A stretch of DNA of 64,000 bases from Kiritimatiellaceae bacterium (GCA_013141415.1 JABFQY010000006.1:1-64000); one strand, 5' to 3'. Shown: positions 22,655-29,424, counted from the stretch's first letter. Program-made: numbers and translations. Notes: generated from the letters alone by a model not told the origin.

Positions 22655-22936
22655 TTAATTCGTCCGCATGGTCACTTCGACCAGATGGTAGCCGAATTGC
22701 GTTTTGACCGGCCCCTGCACCTTGCCGATTTCGGCACTGAAAACCACCTGATCGAACTCGCGAACCATCTGGCCGGGTGAAAAAGTTCCCAGCGCCCCGC
22801 CCTTTTGTCCAGACGGACACTGCGAATGCTGTTTCGCCAGCGCGGCGAAATCCGCACCATCGGCGATCTGCTGTTTGAGTTTATTGCACTCTGCTTCGGT
22901 ACTGACGAGAATGTGTCTTGCTGCGGCCTTTGCCAT
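22655..22936 (-). CDS. ppiC: Parvulin-type peptidyl-prolyl cis-trans isomerase
   Basis: A 93-residue single-domain rotamase with ARHILVSTEAEC at the start, FAALAKQHSQCPSG..GGALGTFSPGQMV in the middle, and FGYHLVEVTMR at the end; these hold the parvulin active-site histidines, serine/cysteine and phenylalanine. No signal peptide, so it acts in the cytoplasm, as E. coli PpiC does. Length matches (93 aa). It converges on the SUI1-like gene across the four-palindrome array. Confidence 0.95.
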   Translation of the reverse strand: MAKAAARHILVSTEAECNKLKQQIADGADFAALAKQHSQCPSGQKGGALGTFSPGQMVREFDQVVFSAEIGKVQGPVKTQFGYHLVEVTMRTN

Positions 22937-23043
22937 ATGAATCCCCTTTTGTTTTTAATCTGAAAGGAGGTAATAGCCTTTTGAAATATGGTTTACAAAC
23001 CAATCTTCCAGCGACTATCCTTCGGCAGTTTTTGGAGAATGCG

Positions 23044-23313
23044 ATGCCTGTTATATCCATGTTTTACGGACTTATTATTCATCTATACTTTCTGGACAAC
23101 CAGCGGCACAAAAAGCCCCATATTCACGTGAGTTATCAAGGTCAGGAAGCTGTTGTTTCGATTCCCGATGGAGATTTGCTCGATGGAACCCTGCCGCCAA
23201 ATAAAATGAAGCTTGTGCAGGCATGGATTGAAATTCACCGGGACGAATTGATAGCGGACTGGTCACTGGCAGCAAAAGGACAGTTGCCCTATAAAATTGA
23301 ACCGCTAAAATGA
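23044..23313 (+). CDS. DUF4160 protein
   Basis: An 89-residue protein beginning MPVISMFYGLIIHLYF, followed by HKKPHIHVSYQGQEAVVSIPDGDLL and a C-terminal W-x5-RDEL..DW helix, the typical DUF4160 pattern. The ATG at 23044 has GGAG upstream. A longer version from TTG at 22981 is also in frame and follows a near-perfect AAAGGAGGT; the family normally begins at MPxISMFYG, so I kept the shorter form. It precedes a DUF2442 gene by 4 bases. The two families are often adjacent and have been suspected of acting as a pair. Confidence 0.85.
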   Translation: MPVISMFYGLIIHLYFLDNQRHKKPHIHVSYQGQEAVVSIPDGDLLDGTLPPNKMKLVQAWIEIHRDELIADWSLAAKGQLPYKIEPLK

Positions 23314-23317
23314 TCGC

Positions 23318-23599
23318 ATGAACCCCGATTTAAAAACAGTTAAAGCCCGTAATGACTACAAGCTCGATCTGGTTTTCGAGAATGGAGAAACCGGCGTGTT
23401 TGACTGCGCCCCCCTACTCGACTTCGGCGTATTCAGGGAACTAAACGACCGGAATTATTTCGAACAGGTTTTCGTTACATTCGGAACGGTTGCCTGGCCT
23501 AATGGGCAGGATATCTGTCCTGATACCCTTTACCTCACAGCAACCGGTAAAGAAAAGCAGCTAATGGTTGCAGAAGAACCGGAAGGATATGGAAAATGA
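23318..23599 (+). CDS. DUF2442 protein
   Basis: A 93-residue protein with the family's strand pattern: KARNDYKLDLVFENGETGVFD, PLLDFGVFRELND, FEQVFVTFGTVAWPNGQDICPDTLYL. The function of DUF2442 is not established. Co-encoded with DUF4160 upstream and overlapping hisB by 4 bases (ATGA), which implies translational coupling to a histidine biosynthesis gene. That is an unusual arrangement and may be coincidental insertion. Confidence 0.88.
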   Translation: MNPDLKTVKARNDYKLDLVFENGETGVFDCAPLLDFGVFRELNDRNYFEQVFVTFGTVAWPNGQDICPDTLYLTATGKEKQLMVAEEPEGYGK

Positions 23600-24195
23600 A
23601 ACAGCGGAAAGCAACGATACAGCGCAAAACGAACGAAACGGATATCTGCCTGTCGATCAACCTCGACGGCACCGGAACCTATTCGATTGAAACCGGCGTG
23701 CCGTTTTTCAACCATATGCTGGAACTGCTTTCCAAACACTCGCTAATCGACATGGATATCAAAGCCTCCGGCGATATTCAGGTGGACTACCACCACCTCA
23801 TCGAAGATGTCGGTCTGGCGCTCGGACAGGCTTTCAACGAAGCGCTCGGCGAACGGCGCGGCATTAACCGCTACGGCTTCTGGCTGCTTCCGATGGACGA
23901 TGCGCTCGCCAGCGCCGAAGTATCGCTCGATCTCGGCGGACGCCCCTACCTCGTCTACGAAATTTCCAATAAGAAAAATCTGATCCGCGACTTCGATACC
24001 GATATTCTCGGTCACTTCTGGCGCTCGTTCTGCGACACCGCCAAACTGAACCTTCACATCGATCAGAAATATGGCGACGATCTGCACCACGCCCACGAAG
24101 CCGTCTTCAAAGCCGTCGCCCGCGCTCTGCGCATGGCCTGCACCGCCGACGAACGCGCCCTCGATGCCCTGCCATCGAGTAAAGGGAAAATCTGA
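23596..24195 (+). CDS. hisB: Imidazoleglycerol-phosphate dehydratase
   Basis: A 199-residue Mn2+ enzyme that dehydrates imidazoleglycerol phosphate in histidine biosynthesis. It has the two duplicated histidine motifs FFNHMLELLSKHS...DYHHLIEDVGLALG and DILGHFWRSFC...DLHHAHEAVFKAVARALR. Length fits the monofunctional bacterial form, without the HAD phosphatase half of E. coli HisB. The start ATG overlaps the DUF2442 stop. No other his gene lies in the window. Confidence 0.97.
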   Translation: MKQRKATIQRKTNETDICLSINLDGTGTYSIETGVPFFNHMLELLSKHSLIDMDIKASGDIQVDYHHLIEDVGLALGQAFNEALGERRGINRYGFWLLPMDDALASAEVSLDLGGRPYLVYEISNKKNLIRDFDTDILGHFWRSFCDTAKLNLHIDQKYGDDLHHAHEAVFKAVARALRMACTADERALDALPSSKGKI

Positions 24196-24202
24196 TAGAA
24201 TG

Positions 24203-24261
24203 ATAAGTTATGAACGATAAATACTGAATAACACATTCAGCACTTGTCGTTTAGGACTTAT
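24203..24261. terminator. Bidirectional hairpin between hisB and the GIY-YIG gene
   Basis: Nested complementary segments are ATAAGT (24203-24208) with ACTTAT (24256-24261), AACGA with TCGTT, and CTGAAT with ATTCAG at the tip. It spans the stop codon of the leftward gene and lies just after hisB. Stems are interrupted and there is no long T run, so it may be a weak terminator. Confidence 0.5.
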
Positions 24262-25909
24262 CCCTCGTCGCCGACCCGCTAGCCGTGATTGTCAGATCGG
24301 CGACGGGCAATTCCAAACCATTACAGGGAGTAAGCCCTTCCTTGTCAGCGATATCGCTACCTGCAAAGGAGTCTGCCGGCTCTAGCAATAACTGCCGATT
24401 GATCCATGCATCTTTCTTCGCAGGATCTTCCGCTATTGCTTTTTCGATCAACATACTTTGTCGATACTCTTCCGCCAAGGCAGCCATCGTCCATTTAGCA
24501 ACTAACCCAAACTTCTCGACCTCTTCACGGATATGGCCAATATCAACTTTGAAAAATTCCTTTCGATAGTTAACTTTATTCATCTGCATCATAACGAAAT
24601 GCTTATGTAGTTGATTTTCCAAGGCGGGGGCATCCTCGCTGAAAATCAATGCGTGGACATCGAATTCAAAGGGCACGCTAGAGTCACCAAGCTCTTTAAT
24701 CCGATCCAATGGATCCAATCTTCTGGTCAAACCGATCTTGTAAACATGCTCTCCGAACGAGCCGATATTTGAAATAATATAGACATGACCGCGTTTTGTT
24801 TGTTGCGCCATGGATAGAGCTCTTTGACTCTTTTCTTCAGCGGCTCTTAGTCTCTCCGATAACTCAGTAAGCTGCGCCTCGTATTTCACCTTTTGCTCTT
24901 CGCTTGCTTGAGCAATTTGCGCCTGAGCTTTTTCCATCGCCTTTCTGAGTATATCCTCTTCTTTGGCCGCATCCTTCATTGCACGCTCAAAATCCCGCCG
25001 CGCTTTTTCTTCTTCCTTGATCTGCTCCTTAATCCGTCGTTGCTCTTCTTTCTCTTCCAGTTTGAGCTGCTGAGCCACCGCCGCCCATTTCAATTCATCA
25101 ATACGCGAAGCTAAATACTCGGGAGATATGGCCGCCTCCCTAAAAGCCTTTCCGTTGTGATTAACGAGGGTAAATGCATCCTTGATTTCTTGCTCCAACT
25201 TCCCTGCATTATCATTTTTGATGCGGGACAATATGGAGTCAACCTTACCGTTGAATGCATCGACAACAAAATCCATCGCCGTATCTTTTCGCTTCGCCTC
25301 AACGTACTCACAGGTTGCCGCCGTACTATTACATACCATAGATTTTGTGCGTTCACGGGCGGCCTTGAGGTTGATCCCAGCCTCTGTGAATCCGAAATCT
25401 TCTGCTAAATCATCAAGCAAACTGCGCCGTGGTATGAGATATTCATCACCGTAACCTTCGATGATATTCTTCATCGCTTTTGCTGTTTTCCCCAGTTGCT
25501 CCACGTTCTTCATGGCTTCGTACGCAGAGCCCGCTATCTCTTCCGCCTTCTTTTCAGCTTCAGCGACAATTCCCTTCGCCTGAACTATCGCAGAATCAAG
25601 ACCCCTCAATGCTTCAACTTCTAGGTTTTTTGCTCTTTGGGCGCTTTCAGATATCATAGAGGCGGCCTGAGTCTTAGCATTCTCAAGTTCAGCCTGTGCT
25701 GTGATCAGTATTTCTTTCGCCCTTCCATCGGCATCGTCAACAACCTGCCACTTTGAAAGCCGTGTATTTTCTATTTTTAATCTGGAGAGCGTGGTCCCCA
25801 GTTCAGAAGCTTTTTTTTCTGCCGCGGTTTTTTTAATCGAGATTCGAAACAGAACCGCAATAAGTATAACGATTATTACAGCGAAACTAAGCGCAAGTAT
25901 TTGATTCAT
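24251..25909 (-). CDS. Membrane-anchored DUF4041 / GIY-YIG nuclease (SNIPE-like)
   Basis: A 552-residue protein. In order: an N-terminal membrane segment (3-21), coiled coil rich in A/E/K (about 28-145), a DUF4041-type region (about 150-290), a second highly charged coiled coil (about 285-370), and a T5orf172-like GIY-YIG domain (374-440). In the last, VYI (376-378), VYKIG (389-393), R396/R397, R403 and E431 form the expected nuclease pattern. This is the architecture of SNIPE, a membrane-bound nuclease reported to cut phage DNA during injection. A potassium-channel gene ends 27 bases upstream on the same strand. Base composition is more AT-rich than in hisB. Nuclease activity is inferred. 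Confidence 0.85.
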   Translation of the reverse strand: MNQILALSFAVIIVILIAVLFRISIKKTAAEKKASELGTTLSRLKIENTRLSKWQVVDDADGRAKEILITAQAELENAKTQAASMISESAQRAKNLEVEALRGLDSAIVQAKGIVAEAEKKAEEIAGSAYEAMKNVEQLGKTAKAMKNIIEGYGDEYLIPRRSLLDDLAEDFGFTEAGINLKAARERTKSMVCNSTAATCEYVEAKRKDTAMDFVVDAFNGKVDSILSRIKNDNAGKLEQEIKDAFTLVNHNGKAFREAAISPEYLASRIDELKWAAVAQQLKLEEKEEQRRIKEQIKEEEKARRDFERAMKDAAKEEDILRKAMEKAQAQIAQASEEQKVKYEAQLTELSERLRAAEEKSQRALSMAQQTKRGHVYIISNIGSFGEHVYKIGLTRRLDPLDRIKELGDSSVPFEFDVHALIFSEDAPALENQLHKHFVMMQMNKVNYRKEFFKVDIGHIREEVEKFGLVAKWTMAALAEEYRQSMLIEKAIAEDPAKKDAWINRQLLLEPADSFAGSDIADKEGLTPCNGLELPVADLTITASGSATRDKS

Positions 25910-25936
25910 CTATCGTTCTTCTTTCTTCCAGGCACA

Positions 25937-26731
25937 CTAGGGCAGTTTCTTTCCGCAGTGCGGACAACATGCTGCCCTAGATTCCTTAGACTTCTGGATT
26001 GCCTCAACAAAGCCAGCCCCGAGAATCCCGGTGGGGAGCGCAAACATACCGATACCAAGAACTGCCACTATGCTTGCACATACTTTCCCGAGGACGGTGA
26101 TTGGACACATGTCGCCGTAACCTACAGTTGTTATCGTGGTGACAGCCCACCACATAGTTGCCGGAATGCTTGAAAAGGTTTTTGGCTGTGCTGCGTTTTC
26201 GCAGCAATAAAGCAAACTGGAAGCTACAACGAGGAGAATCCCCATTAAAACCGACGTGAGAACAAGCTCCTCCTTCTTAGAGCGAAGAACGTGTCTTATC
26301 AGATTAAGGGATGAATAATAATGTCCAATCTTGGCAACACGAAGGATCCGAAAGAGACGCAGAACTCGAAGCGTCCGGAGGTCTATGCCAAGGAACGGAA
26401 GATAAAAAGGAAGAATGGATAAAAGATCGACAATAGACATCGCTCTCAAAGCGAAACGAATACGTCCAAAAATATGTCCGCTAAAACGATGATCGGCTGT
26501 GCACGACCAAAGCCTCGCAATATATTCCATAGTGAAAATACTGACCGAAAAAACCTCAAAAATATTTAAAAAAATACCCCATCGATCCTGTATGGATTGA
26601 ACAGATCCTGCAATTACAGCAAGAACGTTGAGAAAAATGAGCGATAAAATGGCTATCATAAATATTCGGCTCACAGGGTCTTCTGGTTTTGCTGCCGAAA
26701 TGATTTCCCATGTGCGTTTACGGATACTCAT
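25937..26731 (-). CDS. Voltage-gated-type potassium channel
   Basis: A 264-residue six-helix channel subunit. S1 about 23-43, S2 about 54-76, S3 about 98-114, S4 about 117-137 with regularly spaced arginines (LRTLRVLRLFRILRVAK), S5 about 155-177, the selectivity filter TTVGYGD (201-207), S6 about 213-245. The tail ends CCPHCGKKLP, a half zinc ribbon. Homotetramers would conduct K+. It lies 27 bases before the GIY-YIG gene, so the two probably form one transcript. In that setting an ion flux or membrane-potential sensor for phage entry is conceivable; ordinary K+ homeostasis is the simpler alternative. Confidence 0.9.
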   Translation of the reverse strand: MSIRKRTWEIISAAKPEDPVSRIFMIAILSLIFLNVLAVIAGSVQSIQDRWGIFLNIFEVFSVSIFTMEYIARLWSCTADHRFSGHIFGRIRFALRAMSIVDLLSILPFYLPFLGIDLRTLRVLRLFRILRVAKIGHYYSSLNLIRHVLRSKKEELVLTSVLMGILLVVASSLLYCCENAAQPKTFSSIPATMWWAVTTITTVGYGDMCPITVLGKVCASIVAVLGIGMFALPTGILGAGFVEAIQKSKESRAACCPHCGKKLP

Positions 26732-26809
26732 GATTGTCCTTTATTCACGTGTACGTTGTGGAATGCCACACAATACGAGGTTGAAACTGACAAGGAAACT
26801 AAATTAGAT

Positions 26810-26910
26810 TCATTTCCCCGCCAACTGCCCGCAGGCGGCGGCGATGTCGTCGCCGAGGGAATAACGCAGCGTCACCTTGAACCCGGCGCGTTTCAGCTCA
26901 TCGCCGACGC
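26810..26910 (-). pseudogene. Duplicate 3' end of rlmN (integration-site copy)
   Basis: Read leftward the segment encodes DELKRAGFKVTLRYSLGDD followed by IAAACGQLAGK and a stop at 26810-26812. This equals the last ~30 residues of the complete rlmN at 28402. The nucleotide match is only about 85%, with nearly all differences silent. It has no start and sits directly behind the abiEii stop. It is best explained as the displaced rlmN end left when DNA joined the rlmN 3' end. Confidence 0.85.
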
Positions 26911-26916
26911 GGGGCT

Positions 26917-27780
26917 TTAAATTGCCTGTCTGATCAAGGCTGCCTGATCCTGTAAATTAAGCAGCAAAAGTTTCCAGAATTCCGGCTGTCCAAGCATTTC
27001 GCGAACGTCTGTAGCAGGAAGAAATCTCTCCATCTCTTTGCGGAAGTCCTGCCGGTGTTCCGGATTATTCCCCAAGTCATCCAACCGGCTGAGCAGAACG
27101 GATAAAAACTCCTGCCGGAGACGCTGGCGGTCGTCGAGCTTGCATAACAACAGCGGGATATCCAGACGGATCCCCTGTCGATCCAGCCAGAGCATGTCCC
27201 ACAGATCACGATACTTGACCCGGTTGGGACGAAACGCCAGAGCAACCCATTTGTCGGCGAGAATTTCCTCGCGGGTCTGCGCCTGTAAGATCAGCCCTTC
27301 GGTTCCCATGTTCACGCCGTAAAAGTTGCGTAGCATTGCAGGTCGCGGCTGGTGACTTGGCACGGCGCAAATATCAATGTGAATGCGCTGTGCAGGAAGG
27401 TGCTTCGTGCCCGGACGGGTCTGAATGCGTACCTTCCAGGTGCACACATTTCCCTCCTCCCGTTCCGGATCGCTGACATCAACAGGCAGGCCGTACTTGT
27501 TGAGAAGAGTTTTTTCCAGCAGCGGTTTCAGTCCCGCCAGCCGGGCAGGATCGAATCTGCTCCCTCCGGCAAAGTCCAGATCTTCGCTCAGCCGGGGCGA
27601 ACCGTAACAGGCGCGCAGACAGGTTCCTCCGATAAACGTCAGGCCCGTCAACAGTCCGTTGCGGCTCATTTCGCGCAGAATGTCGTGATGCAGCAGTTCT
27701 TTCTCAAGAGCCGGACGTACCGTTCCGAGGGCCTGCTCCGATTGCATTGCCTGTTCCACCAGCCGATCAAACAGATTCAT
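26917..27780 (-). CDS. AbiEii-type nucleotidyltransferase toxin
   Basis: A 287-residue protein of the nucleotidyltransferase AbiEii/AbiGii family, the toxin of type IV (AbiE) systems. The active-site signature is at residues 51-70: GGTCLRACYGSPRLSEDLDF, with D67 and D69 as probable metal ligands. A C-terminal helical region contains the IQTRPG/KHLPAQRIHIDICAVP strand and the ADKWVALAFRPNRVKYRDLWD motif common to the family. Its start overlaps the upstream antitoxin gene by 14 bases. The last codon abuts the rlmN tail relic. Such toxins modify tRNA or GTP pools in studied cases; the target here is not known. Confidence 0.9.
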   Translation of the reverse strand: MNLFDRLVEQAMQSEQALGTVRPALEKELLHHDILREMSRNGLLTGLTFIGGTCLRACYGSPRLSEDLDFAGGSRFDPARLAGLKPLLEKTLLNKYGLPVDVSDPEREEGNVCTWKVRIQTRPGTKHLPAQRIHIDICAVPSHQPRPAMLRNFYGVNMGTEGLILQAQTREEILADKWVALAFRPNRVKYRDLWDMLWLDRQGIRLDIPLLLCKLDDRQRLRQEFLSVLLSRLDDLGNNPEHRQDFRKEMERFLPATDVREMLGQPEFWKLLLLNLQDQAALIRQAI

Positions 27781-28315
27781 TCGCCACCTCCTGATTCACC
27801 AGTCCGGTATCTCTACGGGTTGCCCGCATATCTCGCAACGCCAACGGTACCGATGCACGCCACAGATGGAACCGTGGATCGTAGGTCAGCAACGGTGTCA
27901 GCTCTTCGGCCTTTCTGCGGGTGTGCACAAACTCAATACTTCCATATGCCCCGCAGGCCGTAACACCGGATCGGCCCGAGGACATCAGAGTAAGACGGTT
28001 CACGGGAATTTGTGAGATCACTCCCGCTTCGCTCAACACCGTTTCCAAACTCAGATAATTGAAAAAACCAGCGCGCAGGGAAGCGGCCGTATGCCCTAAA
28101 AGATCACTACCGCGAAGGGTTGAATCAGGCAGAATATAAATTCCCCGGCAGACCCGGATTAGATCACCTCTGCGTTCCAGCCGCGTCACCACTGACTTGA
28201 AAGCGCCTTCCCCGTGTCCCGGGAGCAAAGCCCGCAGGTCTGACAAAGCAAACACCCGTGCCTTTGCATCAGCAAAGTCCCGCAAGCTCCTGATTAACTC
28301 AAACATGGGTTGCAT
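27767..28315 (-). CDS. AbiEi-type antitoxin / transcriptional regulator
   Basis: A 182-residue protein. The N-terminal winged helix (about 15-70: FALSDLRALLPGHG...VVTRLERRGDLIRVCRGIYIL) precedes the AbiEi antitoxin domain, with LSLETVLSEAGVISQIPVNRLTLMSSGRSG and EFVHT. AbiEi proteins repress their own promoter and neutralise AbiEii. The start at 28315 gives MQPMFELI; the second Met (28306) is an alternative, since predicted transcription begins nearly at the codon. The operon order antitoxin-toxin and the overlap are typical. Confidence 0.88.
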   Translation of the reverse strand: MQPMFELIRSLRDFADAKARVFALSDLRALLPGHGEGAFKSVVTRLERRGDLIRVCRGIYILPDSTLRGSDLLGHTAASLRAGFFNYLSLETVLSEAGVISQIPVNRLTLMSSGRSGVTACGAYGSIEFVHTRRKAEELTPLLTYDPRFHLWRASVPLALRDMRATRRDTGLVNQEVANESV

Positions 28316-28351: not shown

Positions 28352-28401
28352 CCTTTTGTATAGAAATAACAGCCTTGAATTGCCTCTTACCCTTTCGTTT
28401 T

Positions 28402-29382
28402 TCATTTCCCCGCCAGCTGGCCGCAGGCGGCGGCGATGTCGTCGCCGAGGGAGTAGCGCAGTGTTACTTTAAATCCGGCGCGCTTCAGTTCATCGGCGAA
28501 GGCTTTACGGGTCTCTTCGGAAACCGGTTCGAACTGTGCGCCGGGGTGCGGATTAAACTGAATCAGGTTGATGTGCGCTTTCGTGCCGTGCAGAAAGTCG
28601 ATCAAAGCGGCGGCATCTTCCGGCCCGTCGTTGATGCCCTTCAACAAAAGAAGCTCAACCATAAACTCCCCGACCTCCGGCAAAACAGATTTCAGCTTTT
28701 CCAGCGTATAAACTTTGGCAACCGGCATAATCCGCTCGCGGACTTCCTGCCGCGCGCTGTGCAGGCTGAGCGCCAGCCGGATGGTTGGAAACCGTTCTGA
28801 AAAACGCACCATCGCATCCGGAATGCCGACGGTAGAAACCATCAGGTGGTTGTCGGAGAGATTGAAAAACCGCGGATCGCGCAGGATTTCCAGACATTGG
28901 AAAAGGTTCGCTTCGTTGCGGAGCGGCTCGCCCATGCCCATCACTACGACGTTGCGAAGCGTCCGCCCTTCTTCGCGCAAAAGCCGCTTGGCGAGCAAAA
29001 CCTGATCGAGCATTTCGTCGGCGGTCAGGTTGCGGATGAAACCGAGCTTACCGGTGGCGCAAAACTGACAGTCGGCGGCGCAGCCGATCTGCGATGAAAT
29101 ACAGAGGCTTGTCCGGCCCGAGGCGATCCGTAGAATCACGGCCTCGATCTTGTGTCCGTCAGCTGTCCGCAGGACCATTTTGGTTGCGCCGTCGCGCTGC
29201 GAGTCGTGCCGCTCTATTGTTTCCGATGCGTGGAAAACAAGTTGCCCAGTCAGCTCCGGTGCTTTCTCCAGACATTCTTCGAGCGGCAGTGCCTTCTTGA
29301 AAAAAGCGTTGCGGAAAAGCTTCAGACGGTGCGGTTCCCGGCAAAGGGTTTCCAATGTCTGAATGTCGTACACAGAATTCAT
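28402..29382 (-). CDS. rlmN: 23S rRNA / tRNA (adenine-2)-methyltransferase
   Basis: A radical-SAM enzyme that methylates A2503 of 23S rRNA and A37 of some tRNAs. Motif CAADCQFC (CX3CX2C) binds the 4Fe-4S cluster; the GMGEPLRN and LSLHSARQEVRERIMP blocks and the C-terminal SLGDDIAAACGQLAGK complete the family. The start is uncertain: ATG 29382 (MNSVYDIQTL, 326 aa) was chosen as closest to family length, while 29391 and 29409 also remain in frame. Its last ~100 bases are repeated at 26810-26910 beyond the abiE genes. Genomic islands commonly use the 3' ends of conserved genes this way. Confidence 0.93.
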   Translation of the reverse strand: MNSVYDIQTLETLCREPHRLKLFRNAFFKKALPLEECLEKAPELTGQLVFHASETIERHDSQRDGATKMVLRTADGHKIEAVILRIASGRTSLCISSQIGCAADCQFCATGKLGFIRNLTADEMLDQVLLAKRLLREEGRTLRNVVVMGMGEPLRNEANLFQCLEILRDPRFFNLSDNHLMVSTVGIPDAMVRFSERFPTIRLALSLHSARQEVRERIMPVAKVYTLEKLKSVLPEVGEFMVELLLLKGINDGPEDAAALIDFLHGTKAHINLIQFNPHPGAQFEPVSEETRKAFADELKRAGFKVTLRYSLGDDIAAACGQLAGK

Positions 29383-29424
29383 TTTAACCATGGAATACAC
29401 CGAAGACACTGAACAGGAACGTTT

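Follow-up and report, generated by a model that had tools for sequence, protein, structure and literature searches.

The window, that is the whole stretch of 64,000 nucleotides analysed here from a Kiritimatiellaceae bacterium, carries an insertion between hisB and rlmN, in which a gene for a voltage-gated-type K+ channel is followed on the same strand by a gene for a predicted membrane nuclease of the SNIPE (PD-lambda-1) type. The locus comprises the following features:

23596-24195, plus strand: hisB, left border of the insertion (sequence)
24251-25909, minus strand: SNIPE (PD-lambda-1) predicted membrane nuclease gene, 552 aa (PADLOC, PHROG, Pfam, AlphaFold model)
24512-24790, minus strand: GIY-YIG nuclease domain (T5orf172/MUG113) of SNIPE, residues 374-466 (Pfam)
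24617-24619, minus strand: codon of E431, the residue aligned with the catalytic E414 in E. coli SNIPE (L301, pairwise alignment)
25103-25270, minus strand: DUF4041 of SNIPE, residues 214-269 (Pfam PF13250, E 2.2e-13, above cut-off)
25847-25903, minus strand: N-terminal transmembrane segment of SNIPE, residues 3-21 (hydropathy scan)
25910-25936, minus strand: 27-nt gap from the channel stop to the SNIPE start, with a purine-rich putative ribosome-binding site (GGAAGAAAGAAG) (sequence)
25937-26731, minus strand: gene of the voltage-gated-type K+ channel (264 aa), which precedes SNIPE in the pair (Pfam, structure match, alignment)
25940-25966, minus strand: C-terminal tail of the channel, CPHCGKKLP, half of a zinc ribbon (sequence and alignment)
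26111-26131, minus strand: K+ selectivity filter TTVGYGD, residues 201-207 (sequence and homologue alignment)
26321-26377, minus strand: S4 voltage-sensor helix of the channel, residues 119-137 (homologue alignment)
26809-26907, minus strand: duplicate of the rlmN 3' end (99 bp; 88% identity with 28401-28499 by sequence comparison)
26917-28315, minus strand: AbiEi/AbiEii toxin-antitoxin pair, a neighbour outside the channel-SNIPE pair (Pfam, PADLOC)
26917-27780, minus strand: AbiE toxin
27767-28315, minus strand: AbiE antitoxin
28402-29409, minus strand: rlmN, right border of the insertion (sister-genome comparison)

Profile matches and alignments confirmed the gene at 24251-25909 as that of an intact SNIPE/PD-lambda-1 homologue, the assignment made in the earlier note. 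The protein matches the PADLOC PD-Lambda-1 model over its full length (residues 5-495, E 5.2e-113) and PHROG 1847 (E 6e-124), and shares with SNIPE/PD-lambda-1 the N-terminal membrane helix (a single strongly hydrophobic helix at residues 3-21, hydropathy 3.0), a coiled region, DUF4041, and GIY-YIG with its catalytic glutamate. The residue ranges proposed for a profile search stood for GIY-YIG (T5orf172, residues 374-466, E 2.5e-14; MUG113, 390-466, E 1.5e-16), but DUF4041, also detected, was narrower in Pfam (214-269) than the 150-290 claimed. E. coli SNIPE (L301, 500 aa) has a glutamate at the published position 414, which aligns to E431 of the window protein. E431 is invariant across the SNIPE homologue alignments made here, and the GIY-YIG catalytic residues, whose loss had been named as a refutation, are kept. 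Plasmid-derived sequences were left out of the alignment for structure prediction. The AlphaFold model of SNIPE (mean pLDDT 76) runs from a long N-terminal helix through a helical core and a second long helix to an alpha/beta domain (374-465), and its predicted elongated shape agrees with the elongated protein described in the SNIPE paper (PMC13190303).

The gene at 25937-26731 was likewise confirmed as an intact Kv-type K+ channel gene, in agreement with the six-helix channel previously proposed, and a voltage-gated K+ conductance is predicted from its sequence. Pfam Ion_trans matches residues 22-248 across the whole six-helix core (profile 2-240 of 241, E 6.8e-27), Ion_trans_2 matches as well (E 4e-15), and the nearest solved structures are Kv7/KCNQ channels (KCNQ4 7byl, E 2.6e-30). 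In an alignment with 12 homologues, R122, R125, R128 and R131 of S4 and the charge-transfer residues F66 and D102 (S2/S3) are invariant, and K134 is nearly so. The filter shows almost no variation across the aligned homologues (L170 has TTIGYGD), and no cyclic-nucleotide or RCK domain was detected in the channel. The protein thus has the six-helix fold region, S4 arginines, charge-transfer residues and TVGYGD filter of bacterial 6-TM voltage-gated K+ channels (Kv/KCNQ-like, PF00520), but differs from them in its short C-terminal half zinc ribbon and in the adjoining nuclease gene. The CPHCGKKLP tail is retained in L058 and L084, altered in L170 and missing from the paired channels of family f12 (in the window's class), G248 and L112. 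Related channels on Natrinema and Salinibacter plasmids (L449, L450) lie amid TrkA/NAD-binding potassium-transport genes, which marks part of the family as ordinary genes of K+ homeostasis. DUF4236 or DUF4236-like proteins are repeatedly encoded just upstream of channels (L058:2225-3403, L064:4249-4854, L345, L360, L448:1822-2142) and, in L170:716-2062, just upstream of SNIPE and channel.

The spacing and strand given in the earlier note agree with the coordinates (channel stop codon 25937-25939, SNIPE ATG 25907-25909, both minus strand), and no terminator-like site was called inside the 27-nt gap. The pair is AT-richer than its surroundings, as had been noted (GC 0.46-0.48 vs about 0.54). In the genus sisters G448 and G079, hisB and rlmN abut convergently with nothing between them, and their coordinates also abut in G442, G029 and G444, whereas in the window about 4.2 kb separate the two genes. 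The borders of this insertion show, at the level of sequence, that the channel-SNIPE pair arrived horizontally as a unit. The second rlmN 3' end, also found as a protein match (91% identity), splits the insert, leaving channel and SNIPE on the hisB side and AbiE on the rlmN side. The AbiE system described beside the pair is recognised, though set apart; we read the site as a hot spot holding two accessory cassettes, one of which would be exactly channel plus SNIPE. AbiE was considered as a component of the system and rejected, because the rlmN remnant intervenes and no other listed AbiEii adjoins a channel. The duplicated rlmN 3' ends (26809-26907 and 28401-28499) flank the AbiE pair as signs of successive cassette insertion. 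Between hisB and rlmN of the window no integrase was found. In G441 the hisB/rlmN site holds two different accessory genes of 367 and 278 aa (L442 = G441:C32, 718-2753), and this other cargo marks the site as an insertion hot spot. Directly upstream of hisB lies a DUF4160 and DUF2442 pair of toxin-antitoxin-like small genes (22918-23599, plus strand).

Adjacency in the window alone was not accepted as proof of pairing until gene neighbourhoods had been surveyed. The phylum sample of 388 genomes comprised 17 with SNIPE (counted when the match was stronger than E 1e-30) and 158 with a related channel, and a listed channel lay within 5 kb of SNIPE in 4 of the 17 (window, G196, G202, and G248, with a spacing of 21 nt). 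As a control from the same genomes, none of 150 listed AbiEii genes, a list from which the window's own AbiEii is absent, lay within 5 kb of a listed channel; Fisher's test of SNIPE against AbiEii gave P 0.0007 without the window and 0.008 with G196 and G202 counted once. Across the whole class (346 genomes) a convincing SNIPE was present in 20, and a channel was nearby at 12 of these 20 loci. Outside the class, the best 80 of at least 584 genomic relatives included two adjacent pairs, channel then SNIPE 34 nt apart in L112 (Oscillospiraceae) and SNIPE then channel 122 nt apart in L170 (Saprospiraceae). The survey proposed earlier thus found that a minority of SNIPE genes adjoin a channel; that they would never do so was the outcome that had been named as contrary. 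Pairing as a general property of SNIPE was rejected, being absent in 77 of the 80 closest genomic relatives (best 80 of at least 584) and on all 80 viral SNIPE contigs; in turn, the 78 viral contigs with a channel that could be read all lacked SNIPE. The majority of related channels lie without a SNIPE beside them, and the nearest relatives of both window genes are solo (L023 for SNIPE, L058 for the channel), a call that is limited by how far the flanks extend (a median of 5.7 kb in the survey of genomes, which are mostly MAGs). L163/L290 (G463) was not counted as a pair, the channel lying on the opposite strand at a distance of about 1.4 kb, beyond one intervening gene. The record concerned (CAMBQV010000019.1), titled Akkermansia muciniphila, matches in length and gene order G463:C19, which is placed in the window's class; the explanation may be a wrong title or a mixed MAG.

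A SNIPE tree built from 58 sequences requires the paired state to change five times, and every one of these changes is forced by branches with support of 95 or more (the level counted as forcing). Solo sisters stand beside the window (L023), G248 (L077), L170 (L171) and L112 (L123), and f12 has solo sisters too. The channel tree needs seven changes of the paired state, at least 3 of them forced, and places the window channel among solo channels, away from those of f12; the placement of L075 and L112 in this tree is unsure because of their long branches. As judged from the SNIPE tree, pairing arose on at least five occasions, among unrelated bacteria and in separate SNIPE lineages, and this recurrence suggests that the channel is a real part of some SNIPE defences, so that some SNIPE systems probably include a dedicated voltage-gated K+ channel.

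Within f12, ten genomes have a channel near SNIPE, and an eleventh locus is ended by the contig edge. The order is channel, SNIPE, third gene in seven genomes and SNIPE, third gene, channel in three, and neighbouring genes mostly overlap by 4 nt (two genomes instead have gaps of 5 or 12 nt). By its gene spacing, the f12 locus is a translationally coupled operon that includes a third, unnamed, predicted membrane protein. Its gene is found at:

L082:942-1982, minus strand: third gene of the f12 operon
L083:7164-8198, plus strand: third gene of the f12 operon
L291-L299: further copies of the third gene

Eleven genomes of the class carry the third gene at full length, and in every one it adjoins SNIPE. 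The protein (about 345 aa) has two hydrophobic helices and a charged coil, and its C-terminal helical domain is conserved; it gave no Pfam match above cut-off, no NCBIfam match, no PDB profile match and a weak PADLOC match (E 0.005), and its fold was uninformative as to identity (AlphaFold pLDDT 72, pTM 0.33; Foldseek best E 1.4). Its C-terminal domain also occurs in proteins of 414 aa (L413:4633-5877, minus strand) and 392 aa (L414:4302-5480, minus strand), the former with an N-terminal half that, by eye, resembles a DnaQ-type exonuclease. A similar exonuclease-like ORF, again by eye, lies near the solo SNIPE of L023 (5470-6213). For the close f12 pairs that could be measured, dN/dS was 0.04-0.18 in all three genes, which shows, as an estimate from coding sequence, co-inheritance of channel and SNIPE under purifying selection in one lineage. 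The divergence of f12 channels follows that of their SNIPEs (r 0.96), a co-divergence that could come from linked vertical inheritance alone. No hidden SNIPE was found among the checked neighbours of 'solo' f12 channels.

These results bear on the simplest alternative, also raised in the earlier note, that channel and nuclease are unrelated genes made adjacent by coincidence or by crowding in a defence island. Most SNIPEs and most channels are indeed solo, and the pair sits beside an AbiE system in an insertion hot spot. Against this stand at least five separate same-strand pairings, the conserved three-gene operon with its 4-nt overlaps and the AbiEii control, while the rlmN remnant sets the AbiE cassette apart from the pair. 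Because of the recurrent pairing, the operon and the control, we regard mere neighbourhood as highly improbable.

Temperate phages commonly carry Kv-type channels (viral contigs L327-L406), which lie between a CI/Cro repressor and the integrase, a slot shared with SNIPE. Around 49 dereplicated viral-contig channels, tyrosine integrases (15) and serine recombinases (5) are found among the two downstream genes, and about 25 HTH proteins of the CI/Cro type among the two upstream genes. Viral SNIPE genes also adjoin CI repressors and integrases, separately from channels. Two prophages of the same Lactobacillus strain illustrate this: PLE2 (L452) has the order HTH, metalloprotease, channel, further genes, integrase, and PLE3 (L453) has HTH, metalloprotease, further genes, a DUF4041 protein, further genes, integrase. 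It is possible that the temperate-phage channels are superinfection-exclusion genes, and the channel may by itself act against phages. This position in the repressor-integrase slot keeps alive the explanation that two independent defences share a cassette, SNIPE cutting DNA and the channel acting alone, upon depolarisation by the phage, as a superinfection-exclusion protein or as an ion-leak effector, the role proposed for RexB; linkage would then reflect joint mobility and no joint mechanism. The many viral contigs with a channel alone, in a slot used by superinfection-exclusion genes, and the division of channel and SNIPE between PLE2 and PLE3, agree with it. A closer tie is suggested, however, by the translational coupling and common third gene in f12, and by the repeated SNIPE-channel pairing when no AbiEii adjoins a channel. 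We therefore hold two separate defences to be rather unlikely, though the most serious of the alternatives.

SNIPE was described by Saxton et al. 2026 (PMC13190303), and had first been found as PD-lambda-1 (PMC9519451). The E. coli protein is located in the membrane, where it is auto-inhibited, associates with ManYZ and cuts incoming phage DNA, probably after binding tape measure proteins (PMC13190303, PMC12904381), and its variable N-terminal region is thought to be an adapter that binds a host membrane protein (PMC13190303). There, SNIPE/PD-lambda-1 appears as a one-gene system that uses the host's ManYZ, whereas the window adds a Kv-type K+ channel and f12 also a third membrane protein. In the accessible text of the SNIPE paper, 'channel' occurs only in microscopy passages and the homologue section gives N-terminal domains and no partner genes; that of the PD-lambda-1 paper contains no SNIPE-channel pairing, and a literature search for the combination, with bioRxiv and most subscription papers outside its scope, returned nothing relevant. 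Thus SNIPE itself is known, and its pairing with an accessory voltage-gated channel, as the earlier note supposed, is undescribed in the literature searched, as far as its accessible text goes. In PADLOC the channel had no match at E 0.1 and the nuclease matched only the PD-Lambda-1 and GIY-YIG models PDC-S57; neither ZorA/ZorB of Zorya (window pair) nor KwaA/KwaB of Kiwa (window pair and other paired proteins tested) was matched. By analogy of working, the pair may resemble Zorya (ZorAB with ZorC/D/E), which combines an inner-membrane ion-conducting complex with a DNA-cutting effector at the site of phage entry (PMC11890865, PMC12904381) and in which ion flow through ZorAB is linked to the nuclease (PMC11890865). 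ZorAB is a MotAB-like motor, unlike the tetrameric-type K+ channel of the window. Kiwa, with the membrane sensor KwaA and its DNA-binding partner KwaB (PMC12904381), would be similar in having two genes, for an infection-sensing membrane protein and a partner that acts on injected DNA, but KwaA is outside the window channel's family and KwaB binds DNA without cutting it. Zorya, Kiwa and SNIPE-ManYZ thus provide precedent for a membrane partner joined to a DNA-acting protein.

Taken together, we think it rather probable that channel and SNIPE form one anti-phage module, with the Kv-type channel as a dedicated membrane partner that likely acts upstream of the nuclease. We infer a defence activity for the window SNIPE, a physical contact with the channel and a role of the channel as sensor or docking partner, which we favour over that of an ion-leak effector or repolariser. 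SNIPE would reside in the inner membrane, kept off the chromosome, and cut phage DNA during injection, with the channel most likely contributing docking, voltage sensing, or both. As a docking protein it would replace the host protein (ManYZ for E. coli SNIPE) and place the nuclease at the site of DNA entry; the channel next door might most simply be an adapter target that travels with the nuclease. As a sensor it would detect the local loss of potential when the phage opens the membrane, and license the nuclease. SNIPE in general can function without the channel, because most SNIPE genes lack one and the E. coli protein works with none encoded in its locus. A role as anchor for an anchorless SNIPE was rejected, because each of the paired SNIPEs checked retains its own hydrophobic membrane helix.

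Injection of phage DNA depolarises the membrane; a literature search on this point returned unrelated papers only. Since the voltage sensor of the channel is intact, depolarisation at the injection site is a plausible signal. We tentatively put forward, as a possibility of low probability, an electrically gated entry defence in which the Kv-type channel would sense the injection depolarisation and activate or position the membrane-anchored nuclease, so that the voltage sensor might be a bacterial innate immune receptor. The same sensor and K+ filter would also suit host protection, in which the channel opens upon depolarisation by the phage, K+ exits, the potential is restored and the cell survives while SNIPE destroys the genome, since a K+ channel opened by depolarisation would repolarise the membrane. 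Infected cells do survive under SNIPE defence (PMC13190303). Protection of this kind leaves the choice of SNIPE as partner unexplained, and we consider it improbable.

Little is established about the means by which bacteria perceive phage entry: Kiwa still lacks a defined trigger, Zorya is believed to answer envelope perturbation, and SNIPE is believed to use contacts with tape measure and host proteins. The recurrent channel-nuclease operon offers a testable case of membrane voltage or ion flow as the trigger. In the f12 operon the third protein, which belongs to no assigned family of Pfam, NCBIfam or PADLOC, is a further candidate for a role in defence. Pairing with SNIPE may in addition suggest what the many orphan Kv-type channels of bacteria and temperate phages could do.
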